Of a stretch of 64,000 nucleotides of DNA, positions 13,182 to 59,438 are shown in pieces (positions within the stretch are counted from its first letter, which is position 1; each line of letters begins with the position of its first letter). The notes beneath the pieces are model-generated. The model saw nothing but the letters and a program-made list of their open reading frames with translations, had not been told where the DNA came from and searched no databases. A program made the translations under genes and the position numbers. This DNA is from an uncultured Bacteroidia bacterium (GTDB taxonomy: Bacteria; Bacteroidota; Bacteroidia; Bacteroidales; UBA932): positions 50,817 through 114,816 of the forward strand of contig CACZUR010000002.1 in the NCBI GenBank assembly GCA_902784435.1. Direction: 5' to 3'.

Positions 13182-13219
13182 GCCTTCTGCATGCCCGGGG
13201 AAACGCCGCCCTGGCCGCT

Positions 13220-13623
13220 GTACATACCAGGTATGTACACGAAATCGCCCTTCCACGGCGTTCTGGCTGCACATACCTCCCCGGAAACACTACCCTACAC
13301 GCCGTACATACCAGGTATGTACACAGAAACGGCCTCCTACGGCATTCCAGCTGTACATACCTACCCGGAAACACTACCCTACACGCCTTACATACCAGGT
13401 ATGTACACAAAAACGGCCTCCTACGGCATTCTGGCTGTACATACCTCCCCGGAAATACTACCCTACATGCTGTACATACCAGGTATGTACACAAAAACGC
13501 CATCCTACGGCACGCCAGCTGTACATACCTCCACCGAAACACCGCCCTGCACGCCTTACATACCAGGTATGTACACAGAAACGGCCTCCTACGGCATTCC
13601 AGCTGTACATACCAGGTATGGAC
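13220..13623. repeat. 84-bp palindromic tandem array (locus 1 of 2)
   Basis: The 19-bp palindrome GTACATACCAGGTATGTAC begins at 13220, 13304, 13388, 13472 and 13556, a spacing of exactly 84 bp; two copies carry one mismatch at the first base. A half-site GTACATACCTCCCC (or close variant) lies 49 bp into each unit. In the last unit this half-site is extended to a near-full palindrome at 13605. The array begins 38 bp after the RNA methyltransferase stop. Since 84 is divisible by 3, most frames on both strands stay open; this is not evidence of coding. Confidence 0.95.
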
Positions 13624-13633
13624 GGGACATTTT

Positions 13634-13689
13634 GGGGAAGGTCCCCTTGGGATTTGGGAAAGGTGTCTTTTTTGCCAGGGACCTTCCCC
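13634..13689. other. Long inverted repeat adjoining the 84-bp array (locus 1)
   Basis: GGGGAAGGTCCC (13634-13645) and GGGACCTTCCCC (13678-13689) are perfect 12-bp complements separated by 32 nt. The arms contain the CCTTCCCC core of the 22-bp array that follows. It could act as a bidirectional terminator for the two convergent operons. Confidence 0.75.
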
Positions 13690-13756
13690 ACGGAAATGCA
13701 GCTAGAGTGGCCTAGAACGCCAATTCAGCGGGGAAGGTCCCGCCCATAAAAACAGA

Positions 13757-13822
13757 CCTTCCCCATACGGGACTCGGACCTTCCCCATTTCTAGCCAGGA
13801 CCTTCCCCATCAGCAAGTTGAA
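13757..13822. repeat. 22-bp array, constant 10-mer plus variable 12-mer (locus 1)
   Basis: CCTTCCCCAT occurs at 13757, 13779 and 13801, each followed by a different 12-nt stretch (ACGGGACTCGGA, TTCTAGCCAGGA, CAGCAAGTTGAA). Degenerate C-rich sequence continues to 13908 with a run of nine C at 13878-13886. No gene is seen in 13823-13908. Confidence 0.85.
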
Positions 13823-16755: not shown

Positions 16756-17757
16756 ATGGACAAGAAAGCCAAAAATATCCTCCGTTACCTGTTCTGGGCC
16801 GCCGTCTCGGTGGTGCTGGTGTATTTCTGCCTCCGCGCCATCAACTGGGCGCAGTTCCTGGAGGCCCTGCGGCAGTGCCGCTGGGAATGGGTGGCGATGG
16901 CCATGGTCTTCGGCATGGCCGGCATGCTGTCCAGGGGCCTGCGCTGGCACATGCTCATGGAGCCCTTCGACCACTCCCTTTCCCGGAGGGCCGTCATCGA
17001 CTCCAACAACATCGGCCAGGCCGTGAACCTGGTGCTGCCGCGCATCGGCGACGTCATGAAACTGGGCTACATCCTCAAGCATTCCGCCAAGGGGAAAGAG
17101 GGGAAACACCTGGTCAGCTTCGACAAATCCCTGGGCACCGTCATCACGGAACGCGTGTGGGATGCCATTGTGGTGGCCCTGATGTCCGTGGTGCTGCTGG
17201 TCGTGAAGTGGGATACCTTCGGGGCCTTCCTGCGGGGCGGCCTCAGCGGCGTGGGCGCCGGCATCTGGTGGTCGCTGGTGGGGCTCGCGGCGCTGGCCAT
17301 CGGCCTGCTGGTCCTCACCTACCTGCTTCGGCGCAAGGGCGGGCTCTGGAGCCGTATCTGGGGCTACATCCACGGCTTCCTGCAGGGGATGATCTCTTTT
17401 CGGCAAATGAAGCGCCCGGGGCTTTTCCTCCTGCATACCGTCCTCATCTGGGGCTTTTACTGGCTCACCAGCGCCTGCATCATCTGGGCGCTGCAGGACA
17501 TGGAGGCCTTCTCCTCCCTGAACTGGGCCGATGCCTTCTTCCTCATGATCGCCGGTGCCATCAGCTCGCTGCTGCCGGTGCCGGGCGGCTTCGGGGCCTA
17601 TCACGGCGTGGTGGCGGGGACACTCCTGAGCATCTGGAACATTCCCATGGGCGTGGGCATGATCTACGCCACCTTAAACCACGAATCCCAGGTACTTGCA
17701 CAGGCGCTGTACGGCCTGTTCTCCTACGTCCGGGAAACTTTTTTCCGCAAGCGGTGA
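16756..17757 (+). CDS. Lysylphosphatidylglycerol synthase TM-region family protein (UPF0104)
   Basis: 333 aa integral membrane protein with about eight hydrophobic segments. It shows the family features SRGLRWHMLM, VNLVLPRIGDVMKLGY and LLPVPGGFGAYHGVV. The family is related to the flippase part of MprF and to AglD; in Bacteroidota its role is unknown, possibly lipid or isoprenoid-linked sugar translocation. An in-frame open stretch runs far upstream, but it is the antisense shadow of the PfkB gene. The ATG at 16756 starts the conserved sequence and follows a -7 box. Its stop overlaps the GTG start of aroE (GTGA). Confidence 0.87.
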   Translation: MDKKAKNILRYLFWAAVSVVLVYFCLRAINWAQFLEALRQCRWEWVAMAMVFGMAGMLSRGLRWHMLMEPFDHSLSRRAVIDSNNIGQAVNLVLPRIGDVMKLGYILKHSAKGKEGKHLVSFDKSLGTVITERVWDAIVVALMSVVLLVVKWDTFGAFLRGGLSGVGAGIWWSLVGLAALAIGLLVLTYLLRRKGGLWSRIWGYIHGFLQGMISFRQMKRPGLFLLHTVLIWGFYWLTSACIIWALQDMEAFSSLNWADAFFLMIAGAISSLLPVPGGFGAYHGVVAGTLLSIWNIPMGVGMIYATLNHESQVLAQALYGLFSYVRETFFRKR

Positions 17758-18608
17758 AGCGCTTCGGCATCATAGGGAATCCCGTGGCGGGCTCCATGAG
17801 TCCCGTCCTTTTCGGCGCCGCCTATGAGGGCCGATACCCCTACGACCTCATCGACCGCCCCACGTTCCAGGAGGCCTGGCAGGCATTCCTGGACGGCTAC
17901 GACGGCGTCAACGTCACGGCCCCTTACAAGCAGGACGCCTGCGCCGCCGTGGACTGGCTGTCGGAGGGAGCCCGCCTGAGCGGCGCCGTGAACCTGGTCG
18001 TCCGCCGGGACGGCCTCCTGCGGGGCTACAACACCGATATCGCAGGGGTGGAAGAGGCCCTTCGCGAAAGCGGCCATGCCTTTGCCGAGGCCCTTTGCGA
18101 AAGCGGCCACGCCTTTGCCGAGGCCCTGGTCGTGGGCACCGGCGGCGCCGCCCGGGCCGCCATCGTGGCCGCCCTGCGGCTGGGCTGCGCCGTCACCGTC
18201 ATCGGCCGCTCCCCCGAAAAAGTGGCGGCGCTGGCCGCACGCTTCGCCTGCCAAGGGATGGTCCTGCAGGCCGATGCTCCCTTAGAAGCTTCCCCTGACG
18301 TCTCCCAAGGTCCGGGAACGCCTGCGGTCGCTGATGAAAAGGCCGATGCTCCCTTAGGCGTTCCCGGACCTTCGTATCGGCCGTCGCTGGTCATTTATAC
18401 GCTGCCGGGGTCGGCGCCGGTGCCGGCGGGGCTGCCGCTGGAAGAGGCGGTGGTGCTGGAGGCGGAGTACAAGCGGCCGAGGCTGGTATCGGCCCCCTGC
18501 AAAGCCTATATCAGCGGCCGCCGATGGCTGCTGTGGCAGGCCGTTGCCGGTTACAGCCTGTTCACCGGGGAGGAGCCGTCCCTGGAGAAAATCTTGCGGG
18601 CACTGTAG
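17754..18608 (+). CDS. aroE: Shikimate dehydrogenase with two in-frame repeat expansions
   Basis: 284 aa from a GTG that overlaps the upstream stop. It reduces 3-dehydroshikimate to shikimate with NADPH. Visible motifs: substrate-binding SMSP near residue 14, NVTAPYKQDA with the catalytic Lys at about 65, NTD near 90, dinucleotide motif VVGTGGAARA and IGRSPEK, and a C-terminal LLWQAVAGYSLFTG. Bacteroidota AroE is usually about 245-250 aa. The surplus comes from an 11-residue duplication (EALxESGHAFA, residues ~101-122) and a ~38-residue insertion at ~171-209 encoded by a palindromic element. Both keep the frame and spare the motifs. Confidence 0.93.
   Translation: MKRFGIIGNPVAGSMSPVLFGAAYEGRYPYDLIDRPTFQEAWQAFLDGYDGVNVTAPYKQDACAAVDWLSEGARLSGAVNLVVRRDGLLRGYNTDIAGVEEALRESGHAFAEALCESGHAFAEALVVGTGGAARAAIVAALRLGCAVTVIGRSPEKVAALAARFACQGMVLQADAPLEASPDVSQGPGTPAVADEKADAPLGVPGPSYRPSLVIYTLPGSAPVPAGLPLEEAVVLEAEYKRPRLVSAPCKAYISGRRWLLWQAVAGYSLFTGEEPSLEKILRAL
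18054..18122. repeat. 33-bp tandem duplication inside aroE
   Basis: Near-identical 33-bp units start at 18054 and 18087, and a third copy begins (GAGGCCCT) at 18120. They encode an exact 11-residue repeat with one Arg/Cys difference. The repeat lies just before the dinucleotide-binding motif. Confidence 0.93.
18307..18372. repeat. In-frame palindromic element inside aroE
   Basis: AAGGTCCGGGAACGCCT (18307-18323) and AGGCGTTCCCGGACCTT (18356-18372) are a perfect 17-bp inverted repeat around a 32-nt loop (18324-18355). The loop contains GCGGTCGCT at its start and GGCCGATGCTCCCTT at its end. A second copy of the loop's 3' part, AGGCCGATGCTCCCTTAG, lies just upstream at 18269-18286. The same loop occurs inside cysS at 22269-22300. 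Confidence 0.92.
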
Positions 18609-21829: not shown

Positions 21830-23377
21830 TTACTCCAATGTCCAGGTGGCGCCGTCCTTGGTGTCCTTGACGGCGATGCCGAAGGAGGCCAGGGTGTCGC
21901 GGATGCGGTCGCTTTCCGCCCAGTTCTTTTCCTCGCGGGCCTTCTTGCGGGCGTCCAGCACCAGGCCCATGACGCCTTCCAGGGCCTTTTCGGCCTTGCC
22001 GGAAGCGCCGGCTTCCTCGTCGCGGAGGCCCAGCACGCCGCCCACGATGTCGTCGAACAGCTTCTTCAGGGCCGATGCATCCGCTGCCGACAGCCCGCCG
22101 GCATTCACCAGCTTCACGGCCTCGAACAGATGGGCGATGGCCACCGGCGTATTCAGGTCGTCGCAGAGGGCGTCCATCACGTTTTCGTAAATGGCCGCCA
22201 CTGCCGGGGAGACCTTACTCCCGTCGGCAAAAATGAGGGCCGATGCCTCCTGGAGCAAGGTCTCCCCTGCGGTCGCTAAAGAGAAGGCCGATGCTCCCTT
22301 AGGGGCATCCCCCTCCGCGGCGCCACCCAGCGCACGCCAGGCCTGCAGCAGGCGGGCGAGGCCCTTTTCGGCGGCGGAGAGGGCTTCGTTGGAGAAGTCC
22401 AGGGTGCTGCGGTAGTGGGCCTGCAGGATGAAGAAGCGGATGGTCATGGGGCTGTAGGCCCTGTCCAGTTTGGGATGGTCTCCGGCGAAGAGCTGGGGCA
22501 GGGTGATGAAGTTGCCCAGGGACTTGCCCATCTTCTGGCCGTTGATGGTGATCATGTTGTTGTGTACCCAGTAGTGTACGCCCTGGGTGCCGCGGGAGGC
22601 GACGTTCTGGGCAATCTCGCACTCGTGGTGCGGGAACATCAGGTCCATGCCGCCGCCGTGGATGTCGAACTCCTCTCCCAGGTACTTCTCTCCCATCACG
22701 GAGCATTCCAGGTGCCAGCCGGGGAAGCCGTCGCCCCAGGGGCTGGGCCAGCGCATGATGTGCTGGGGTTCCGCCTTTTTCCAGATGGCGAAGTCGTAGG
22801 GGGCGCGTTTATCCCCCTGGCCGTCCAGCGAGCGGGTGCCTTCCAGCGTGGCTTCCAGCGTGCGGCCGCTCAGGACGCCGTAGTTGTGGTCCCGGTTGTA
22901 CTTCTGGACGTCAAAGTACACGGAGCCGTTGCTCTCGTAGGCATAACCGGCCGCCAGGATCTTTTTCACCACCTCTATTTGCTCGATGATGTGGCCGCTG
23001 GCGCGGGGCTCGATGGAGGGAGACTCCACGTTCAGGAGGCGCATGGCCTCGTGGTAGCGCTCCGTGTAGTACTGGACCACTTCCATGGGCTCCAGCTGTT
23101 CCAGGCGGGCTTTCTTGGCAATCTTGTCCTCCCCTTCGTCGGCGTCGTGCTCCAGGTGGCCCACATCCGTAATATTACGCACATAGCGCACCTTGTAACC
23201 CAGGTACTTCAGGAGGCGGAAGAGGATGTCGTAGGTGACGCCCGGACGGGCGTGGCCCAGATGGGCGTCCCCGTACACTGTGGGGCCGCACACATACATG
23301 CCCACCCGGCCTTCGTGGATGGGTTTGAACAGTTCCTTATTGCGGGAAAGGGTATTGGTCAGATACAGAGGTCTCAT
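21830..23377 (-). CDS. cysS: Cysteinyl-tRNA synthetase with an in-frame palindromic insertion
   Basis: 515 aa. Motifs: Zn-ligand Cys and HIGH in [17 protein letters not shown], the second Zn site [17 protein letters not shown], and KMSKS as KMGKS. It charges tRNA-Cys in the cytoplasm. Typical CysS has about 490 residues. The surplus (residues ~358-392, segment around [15 protein letters not shown]) lies between the catalytic core and the C-terminal helical bundle and is encoded by palindromic elements shared with aroE. A longer reading frame extends upstream antisense to folD; the ATG at 23377 begins the conserved sequence. First gene of a three-gene operon, divergent from folD. Confidence 0.95.
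22206..22305. repeat. Two palindromic elements inside cysS
   Basis: Element 1: GGGGAGACCTTACTCC (22206-22221) and GGAGCAAGGTCTCCCC (22252-22267) pair at 15 of 16 positions around a 30-nt loop containing GAGGGCCGATGCCTCC. Element 2: arms CCCCT (22264-22268) and AGGGG (22301-22305) enclose a 32-nt loop (22269-22300). That loop matches the aroE loop at 29 of 32 positions, with GCGGTCGCT at the start and GGCCGATGCTCCCTT at the end. Confidence 0.9.
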
Positions 23378-58669: not shown

Positions 58670-59072
58670 GTACATACCAGGTATGTACACGAAAACGGCC
58701 TCCTACGGCACTCCAGCTGTACATACCTCCCCGGAAACACTGCCCCACACACAGTACATACCAGGTATGTACACGAAAACGGCCTCCTACGGCACTCTGG
58801 ATGTACATACCTCCCCGGAAACACTGCCACACACGCCGTACATACCAGGCATGTACACGAAAACGCCCTCCTACGGCACTCTGGATGTACATACCTCCCT
58901 GGAAACACCGTCCGACCCGCGGTACATACCAGGTATGTACACGAAAACGCCCTCCTACGGCACTCCAGCTGTACATACCTCCCCGGAAATGCCGCCCCAC
59001 ACGCGGTACATACCAGGTATGTACACGAAAACAGCCTCCTACGACACTCCAGCTGTTCATACCTCCCTGGGA
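58670..59072. repeat. 84-bp palindromic tandem array (locus 2 of 2)
   Basis: GTACATACCAGGTATGTAC begins at 58670, 58754, 58838 (one mismatch), 58922 and 59006, exactly 84 bp apart, with the half-site GTACATACCTCCC or a variant 49 bp into each unit. The first array lies at 13220-13623. Here too the frames stay open on both strands; I do not call a gene. Confidence 0.95.
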
Positions 59073-59173: not shown

Positions 59174-59240
59174 ACGGAAACGCAGCCAGAGTGGCCTGGA
59201 ACGCCAATTCAATGGGGAAGGTCCTGCCCCCAAAAACAGA

Positions 59241-59438
59241 CCTTCCCCATACGGGACTCGAACCTTCCCCATTTCTAGCCAGGACCTTCCCCATGTTGGC
59301 CTACCACCTTCCCCATATGAGACATAGACCCTCACCATATGAGACATAGACCCTCACCATATGAGACATAGACCCTCACCATATGAGACATAGACCCTCA
59401 CCATTTCTAGCCAAGACCTTCCCCAAACGAAGGGGGCG
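59241..59438. repeat. 22-bp array, constant 10-mer plus variable 12-mer (locus 2)
   Basis: Nine units start at 59241, 59263, 59285, 59307, 59329, 59351, 59373, 59395 and 59417, all 22 bp apart. The constant part is CCTTCCCCAT, drifting to CCCTCACCAT in units 5-8. The 12-nt parts are ACGGGACTCGAA, TTCTAGCCAGGA, GTTGGCCTACCA, ATGAGACATAGA (four times), TTCTAGCCAAGA and ACGAAGGGGGCG. The first two match locus 1 in the same order. Confidence 0.9.

Follow-up and report, generated by a model that had tools for sequence, protein, structure and literature searches.

Palindromes that lie in frame within coding sequence are best known from Rickettsia. The Rickettsia palindromic elements (RPEs) are presented in PMC2229807 and PMC10969869 as dispersed palindromes that occur in frame within unrelated protein-coding genes, with a length given as 105-146 bp (PMC2229807) or, in reviews, as about 150 bp (PMC2229807/PMC10969869). 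Translation of the insert is reported for one Rickettsia gene (PMC2229807), RPE-4 and RPE-6 are described as CGTC-tagged (PMC3733652), and RPE arms are stated to lose identity over time (PMC6649704). REP hairpins are mentioned as sometimes intragenic (PMC3733652). The account in PMC6649704 includes two mitochondrial cases, namely coding palindromes with matching arms within genes of Nematomorpha, for which template switching is proposed, and the byp elements of yeast, palindromic insertions in coding genes that are left untranslated by bypassing. Template switching is credited with homogenising arms and inverting spacers (PMC8604942, PMC8794818).

The window analysed here is a stretch of 64,000 nucleotides from an uncultured member of the Bacteroidia, the genome of which is hereinafter designated G000. 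The aroE gene in this window, encoding a shikimate dehydrogenase, contains a hairpin with a total length of 66 nt (18307-18372; Table 1). Consistent with the preliminary description, a perfect 17-bp inverted repeat encloses a 32-nt loop, and this loop is identical at 29 of 32 positions to a loop in cysS. Folded as DNA, the hairpin reaches −22.6 kcal/mol, compared with a mean of −9.9 for shuffled sequences (z = −6.0; 0 of 200 shuffles as good). The best PDB matches of AroE are shikimate dehydrogenases, and the matches stop shortly before the insertion.

Table 1. Features of the aroE and cysS copies of the element (window positions).
Feature	Position	Strand	Basis or remark
aroE (shikimate dehydrogenase), host of the element	17754..18608	+	ORF and Pfam PF08501 N-terminal match; start codon inferred
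Element half copy (3' half of loop, AGGCCGATGCTCCCTTA), aroE, just upstream of hairpin	18268..18284	+	sequence
aroE hairpin, left arm	18307..18323	+	inverted-repeat finding
Conserved 32-nt loop, aroE hairpin	18324..18355	+	sequence and pattern search
18-nt family core CTGATGAAAAGGCCGATG in aroE loop	18331..18348	+	core search
aroE hairpin, right arm	18356..18372	+	inverted-repeat finding
cysS, host of two element copies	21830..23377	-	ORF and Pfam; start codon inferred
Neighbouring longer cysS hairpin, core CAAAAATGAGGGCCGATG at 22228-22245	22197..22276	+	repeat finder and core search
cysS copy, 32-nt loop	22269..22300	+	flush arms only 5 bp (22264-22268 / 22301-22305)

Partial or tandem copies like the half copy in aroE are also found at L014, L016 and L019; these loci and L062 contain tandem, half or double copies within one gene, which is consistent with slippage at the hairpin. 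Upstream of the element, aroE contains a tandem duplication, EALRESGHAFAEALCESGHAFAEAL (about 18052-18125). The outer end of the aroE arm, AAGGTCC, is also present in GGGGAAGGTCC-type inverted repeats at 13633-13808 and 59212-59294, and arrays of the palindrome GTACATACCAGGTATGTAC occupy 13219-13625 and 58670-59024, where many of the neighbouring copies are separated by about 65 nt.

The preliminary description further stated that the arms differ between the two genes and remain self-complementary. This is true of the aroE arms, whereas the flush arms of the cysS loop are short and pair at 11 of 25 flanking positions overall. The long arms nearby (22197-22229 and 22244-22276) belong to a second, adjoining copy and are not the arms of this loop. 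The cysS site lies between protein domains. In an alignment of the 30 best of 114 matching genomes of the genus (G000 among them) plus Tb.RUG.143, inspected by eye, CysS of near relatives has hairpins at the site, several with other loops, and CysS of more distant relatives has no long hairpin there.

Pattern searches, with the reversed pattern as control, show that the element is dispersed. The search pattern proposed in the preliminary description gives 10 exact copies in G000 and none for the reversed control; a looser pattern gives 22 matches and none. The 18-nt core CTRAWRRRARGGCCGATG, with up to one mismatch, is found 39 times in G000 (1 reversed) and 17 times in G077 (0 reversed). At least one core match is present in 70 of the 200 genomes searched (G000 counted), a clear excess over the control being confined to G000 and G077, with at most five matches in every other genome. 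The element is thus frequent in two related ruminant-gut MAGs and not in most of 120 genomes of the same genus. G028 has five core matches (2 reversed), of which the three fetched are all hairpins, one with a gapped stem that falls under the ungapped pairing threshold. G057 has four (0 reversed), and the one match checked in G034 is no hairpin. In contigs of GTDB genomes, a scan that may omit records near the genome of the window, the exact 26-base pattern of the 32-nt class (defined below) gives 31 stretches, all in Bacteroidales MAGs of ruminant origin or of the Tb.RUG series: Tb.RUG.143, RGIG7856 (corresponding to G077), RGIG9187, RGIG5940 and Red_deer_4_mag_41. The named carriers are MAGs from species far apart. 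No match was obtained with the exact pattern in viral contigs, or by blastn with the 32-nt loop in plasmids and phages. In Tb.RUG.143, 13 of 15 hairpins have one identical core, found with a search pattern narrower than that used for G000 yet permitting other variants at the positions in question. In the window and 20 further stretches (464 kb in all), there are 12 perfect hairpins with arms of at least 14 bp; six lie within ORFs of at least 150 codons, and three of these six belong to the core family.

Elements fall into two classes, with arms flush either to the 18-nt core or to the 32-nt loop. In the 32-nt loop the inner bases are conserved (for example, TCGGTCG ... CTCCCTC). The median distance from the 18-nt core to the stem end is about 24 nt (range 11-34), giving hairpins of about 40-88 nt, typically near 68 nt. 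Pairing was scored at 116 sites with a loose core (at most two mismatches), drawn from loci in G034 and seven carrier genomes. At 70 sites, 38 of the 60 in G000 among them, at least 15 of the 25 flanking positions are paired, the 99.9% point of the chance level being 14/25 (from 200,000 random positions in such loci, elements included). The 46 sites under the threshold comprise many chance matches to the loose core, some copies whose core is intact but whose stem is imperfect or gapped, and a small number of tandem or half copies. Specifically, L009 (11/25) and L120 (13/25) have an intact core and poor ungapped arms, and L115:151 is a chance core match in a low-complexity alanine-rich linker. 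In 36 copies of the 32-nt class, selected by pairing, stem positions 8 to 25 are paired at 64 to 97%, and the third-codon-position columns 11, 14, 17 and 20 hold only 0.07-0.62 bits. Without selection by pairing, 83.2% of stem cells are paired in 48 copies, versus 68.9% after shuffling and 46-59% in slid controls. In these unselected copies 16 of 21 pairs are changed on both sides, a proportion reached by 6 of 500 shuffles; the other four pairing measures were reached by 0 of 500.

Hosts named by Pfam include CysS, AroE, IleS, MetG, Mur ligase, methionyl-tRNA formyltransferase, UvrA and ATP synthase gamma, and further MiaA, FolP, an RnfB-like Fe-S protein, KdtA and RmlD. An unambiguous ORF of at least 150 codons could be assigned to 52 of the 70 hairpin copies (themselves selected by pairing), and 46 of the 52 share a codon register that places the core's first base at a second codon position. 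At least L125 and L152 among the six off-register copies are neighbouring ORFs picked by length; the RsmF copy is in a different register. The 46 same-register copies comprise 32 in sense and 14 in antisense orientation, and in both orientations the reading frame is open through the insert. With this register, the two arms of the stem pair third codon positions with each other, so the stem can drift without much change to the protein. A link of orientation to replication was considered and rejected: local GC skew, weak here, is positive on the element strand in 23 of 39 copies, which gives no signal.

The arms diverge far more than the core. In 31 same-orientation pairs, orthologous arms differ at 10.8 of 26 positions (42%), a value inflated by the different-place, chance-core and tandem pairs kept among the 37 divergence pairs, and orthologous cores differ at 1.87 of 18 (10%). 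The 37 pairs were chosen by flank similarity and include L014/L131 and L066/L114 (different places of one gene), L115:151 and the tandems L016 and L019. Four-fold sites of such genes differ by 39% (14 pairs, three of them with a wrong ORF, L152 or L156, contributing 31 of about 2,400 sites), and the arms therefore diverge at about the neutral rate. Non-orthologous cores of different genomes differ at 2.43 of 18 positions, as against 1.87 for orthologous ones, indicating that some orthologue signal is kept and that homogenisation of the loop is incomplete. Within genomes, cores differ at 0.57 (Tb.RUG.143), 1.81 (G077) and 2.82 (G000) of 18 positions, and arms at 11.5 of 26. Arms at unrelated loci have a common consensus, E-G-D-T/A-P ... 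G-V/A-S-P-S.

Mismatches in the stems are asymmetric. In the 70 copies selected by pairing, A.C mismatches exceed G.T mismatches on the strand defined by the loop, with 41:3 in the 48 copies of the 32-nt kind and 26:5 in the 22 others, where independence predicts 59% and 54% A.C, respectively. Because the excess is seen in sense (51:3) and antisense (15:4) copies, it is not tied to the mRNA. A fold adopted by the opposite strand, whether single-stranded DNA or RNA, would be compatible with it.

Comparison between species defines where the element is shared and where it is missing. The species compared with G000 were G077, Tb.RUG.143, G028, RGIG9187, RGIG5940 and the red-deer MAG. At 15 sites of G000, or 16 with IleS, the corresponding unaligned stretch of an orthologue in another genome also holds a core; since these stretches measure 33 to about 550 nt, an identical place is not proved for every site. 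The pair of L066 with Tb.RUG.143 was dropped from this comparison because the core match (L133:5424) is no hairpin (7/25), and that of L057 with G077 was left out of the count. Tb.RUG.143 has a half copy at one of the L014 places. Five of the 16 common sites have at least one comparison in which the other species carries the loop the opposite way round, although for four of them the copy in that species (L120, L124, L149, L155) falls short of the threshold for ungapped pairing. In seven comparisons with a core-free orthologue G000 is longer, by 63, 90, 105, 114, 117, 123 and 138 nt, all multiples of three; these differences include any other changes, and that of 114 spans two neighbouring G000 copies. 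In MiaA (L061) the aligned G077 sequence has no core and nearly equal length (−6 nt).

The preliminary description had named one alternative, that AroE and CysS orthologues all carry these residues as ordinary conserved sequence. For AroE this was not borne out: none of the 19 aligned relatives has them, Tb.RUG.143, G077 and G028 included (25 genomes matched; G000 and 19 others were aligned, and five weaker ones left out). AroE of G069 and G115 has other extra residues at this place, and the AroE of G000 exceeds that of G077 by 105, or by 147 when a longer stretch is compared. In IleS, aligned for the G077 locus and the top 30 of 116 genomes with a match, G028 and G037 have no insert, and G019 has a hairpin with a different loop. 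At the aminotransferase site, G077 is element-free and reads CCGGAAGGCGAAGC where the left arm of G000 is CCGGAGGGAGATGC. The flanks at element-free sites are too diverged for a target-site duplication, as expected of a MITE, to be read.

Other loops occur in hairpins of this genus. A second family (B), with the loop GTCGCTTYGCGACCCTGTNCGGGNAAATG first met in the CysS linker, is found with up to three mismatches in 15 of 122 genus genomes (0 reversed). The 30 copies of family B that were read lie in either orientation, mostly within long ORFs, and most have loop ends like those of the first family (A), with GTCGCT on one side and ATGCTCC or a similar form on the other. The A.C asymmetry is absent from family B (13:10 in the 22 of 30 copies with at least 15/24 paired). 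Matches to a third variant core, GTGTCGATG, come from 8 of the 122 genomes, chiefly G089 and G069. The loop of family B (L221-L250) contains a small hairpin of its own, with paired changes from GTCGC..GCGAC to GTTGC..GCAAC. Composite or paired REP-like hairpins stand beside RAYT genes at L278 (RAYT ORF 1592-2566 and downstream), L284 and L297-L326, and several such RAYT-adjacent pairs are joined by an A-rich ...GGCC... linker.

Ordinary conserved coding sequence, or an assembly artefact, is hardly credible as the origin of the element. Genes of this kind do contain low-complexity alanine-rich linkers (e.g., L115:151), but the loop is conserved at the nucleotide level, orthologues without the element exist, and MAGs of several ruminant hosts and from several projects contain the same element. 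Selection for a functional hairpin in the host mRNAs, for pausing, stability or regulation, would account for stems that remain largely paired across neutral divergence and for the position of the CysS site between domains. It is nevertheless very unlikely, given that copies are in both orientations (32 sense, 14 antisense), that orientation differs between species at some sites, that mismatches in the mRNA show no preference for G-U (18 of the tolerated kind and 55 others), and that the host genes are unrelated and the insert is missing in most relatives examined. Structure at the mRNA level was rejected on the mismatch asymmetry, which is in the wrong direction. Known RNA families were searched with cmscan at 10 loci; all hits were below the gathering score (MIR949 at two loci, isrG at one) and are taken as chance matches to GC-rich hairpins.

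If the element were of REP type and mobilised by a RAYT/TnpA-REP (HUH, Y1) transposase that works on hairpins of single-stranded DNA, this would explain why the mismatch asymmetry is bound to one strand of the element. RAYT genes are over the cut-off in 80 of 122 genus genomes, G000 has three matches, two of which are listed over the cut-off, and AAAAAAGGCCGAT, which resembles the family core, lies beside a RAYT of G000 (L278, in a composite hairpin) and one of G019 (L284). We consider this origin unlikely, however: in 140 stem-end windows GTAG (2 versus 2.7 expected) and CTAC (2 versus 2.6) show no excess, CGTC (5 versus 4.5) and GACG (8 versus 4.6) are taken to show none, RAYTs are common in genomes without the family, and orientation does not track GC skew. 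The motif GGCCGAT occurs 11 times in 60 flanks of at most 350 bp at 30 RAYT loci, which is below the G000 background of about 0.36 per 350 bp; with RAYTs widespread in the genus and this motif not enriched beside them, no mobiliser was found. It is likewise improbable that the loop alone is mobile and that insertion copies one target flank in inverted form, so that the arms are host sequence. In its favour, arm divergence among loci and orthologues is close to the neutral rate, loop variants show some specificity to the genome, and the element-free aminotransferase sequence of G077 resembles the left arm of G000. Against this, arms share a consensus across unrelated loci, their within-genome difference of 11.5/26 is less than expected of unrelated sequences, and L066 exceeds its G077 counterpart by 90 nt, more than a loop plus one arm, although other changes may contribute. 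More tentatively, many hairpin loops may be rewritten from one source per genome in a homing-like manner while the stems evolve freely under template switching. If so, sister species can differ in the loop family found at one site (the CysS linker, for instance) and still retain the hairpin itself.

We favour an RPE-like mobile palindromic family in which the arms are kept complementary by template switching and the loop is conserved or homogenised within a genome, and assign this reading a probability of about 0.6. Template switching is proposed because neutral drift with pairing maintained and inversion of the loop are its reported products; both the stem changes on two sides and the inverted spacers by which it can be recognised are found here. 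The excess of A.C over G.T in family A counts against it, as plain template switching predicts no such asymmetry. Further points against the favoured reading are the negative search for a mobiliser, the poor ungapped arms of some copies with an intact core, the weak partner stems at four of the five inverted sites, the incomplete homogenisation of the loop, and the near-equal length of the core-free G077 sequence at L061. Template switching does not suffice for conservation of the loop, which calls for continued copying from some source or for a loop-binding factor. The form that spreads would be a folded single strand transported by a trans-acting enzyme, and after insertion the stem would drift at the neutral rate. 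Template switching during replication would then copy one arm onto the other, thereby maintaining complementarity, and sometimes flip the loop. The loop may stay uniform within a genome through continued copying from a lineage-specific source or through constraint by a binding factor, and the host proteins presumably tolerate the hydrophilic linker that the element encodes in either orientation. The proposal of an intragenic palindromic element class with a conserved loop and variable, complementary arms thus gains support from genome-wide copies, in-frame placement, element-free orthologues and covariation. That the class is undescribed in Bacteroidota agrees with the open-licence literature, in which, judged by titles and the starts of abstracts, no description of such elements in Bacteroidales was found. 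The weak cysS arms qualify the proposal.

If palindromes also lengthen proteins in gut Bacteroidales, the process would not be confined to bacteria with an intracellular life. A loop that is conserved next to stems that drift neutrally yet stay largely paired, in genes whose orthologues are known, offers a natural test bed of whether template switching keeps hairpins without selection on each stem. Inserts within housekeeping genes (by Pfam domain CysS, IleS, MetG, a Mur ligase and UvrA, among others) show where proteins tolerate new linkers.

Compared with the systems described so far, the byp elements as portrayed in PMC6649704 are left untranslated, whereas the frame of the Bacteroidales element, as read from the DNA, is open through the insert in both orientations. 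Unlike the Nematomorpha palindromes, as that source describes them, it is a dispersed bacterial family with a common loop. With REP/BIME sequences, in the features given for them in PMC3733652, it shares short hairpin DNA that is sometimes intragenic and RAYTs in the same genome. It differs from them in its long conserved loop, variable arms and mainly intragenic location, in having no GTAG or CGTC excess at the stem ends, and in having no demonstrated link to RAYTs. The host is a member of the Bacteroidales and not Rickettsia, and the hairpins, at about 40-88 nt, are shorter than the 105-146 bp quoted for RPEs (PMC2229807). Nor do the stem ends show the CGTC excess that the tag of RPE-4 and RPE-6 in PMC3733652 would suggest, and the arms drift yet stay largely complementary, whereas those of RPEs are stated to lose identity (PMC6649704). 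In the following described features the two are alike: both are palindromic, hairpin-forming, dispersed and in frame within conserved protein genes. The best explanation is that these are putatively mobile, protein-coding short palindromes of the same general kind as RPEs, carried by a small clade of Bacteroidales from the ruminant gut.
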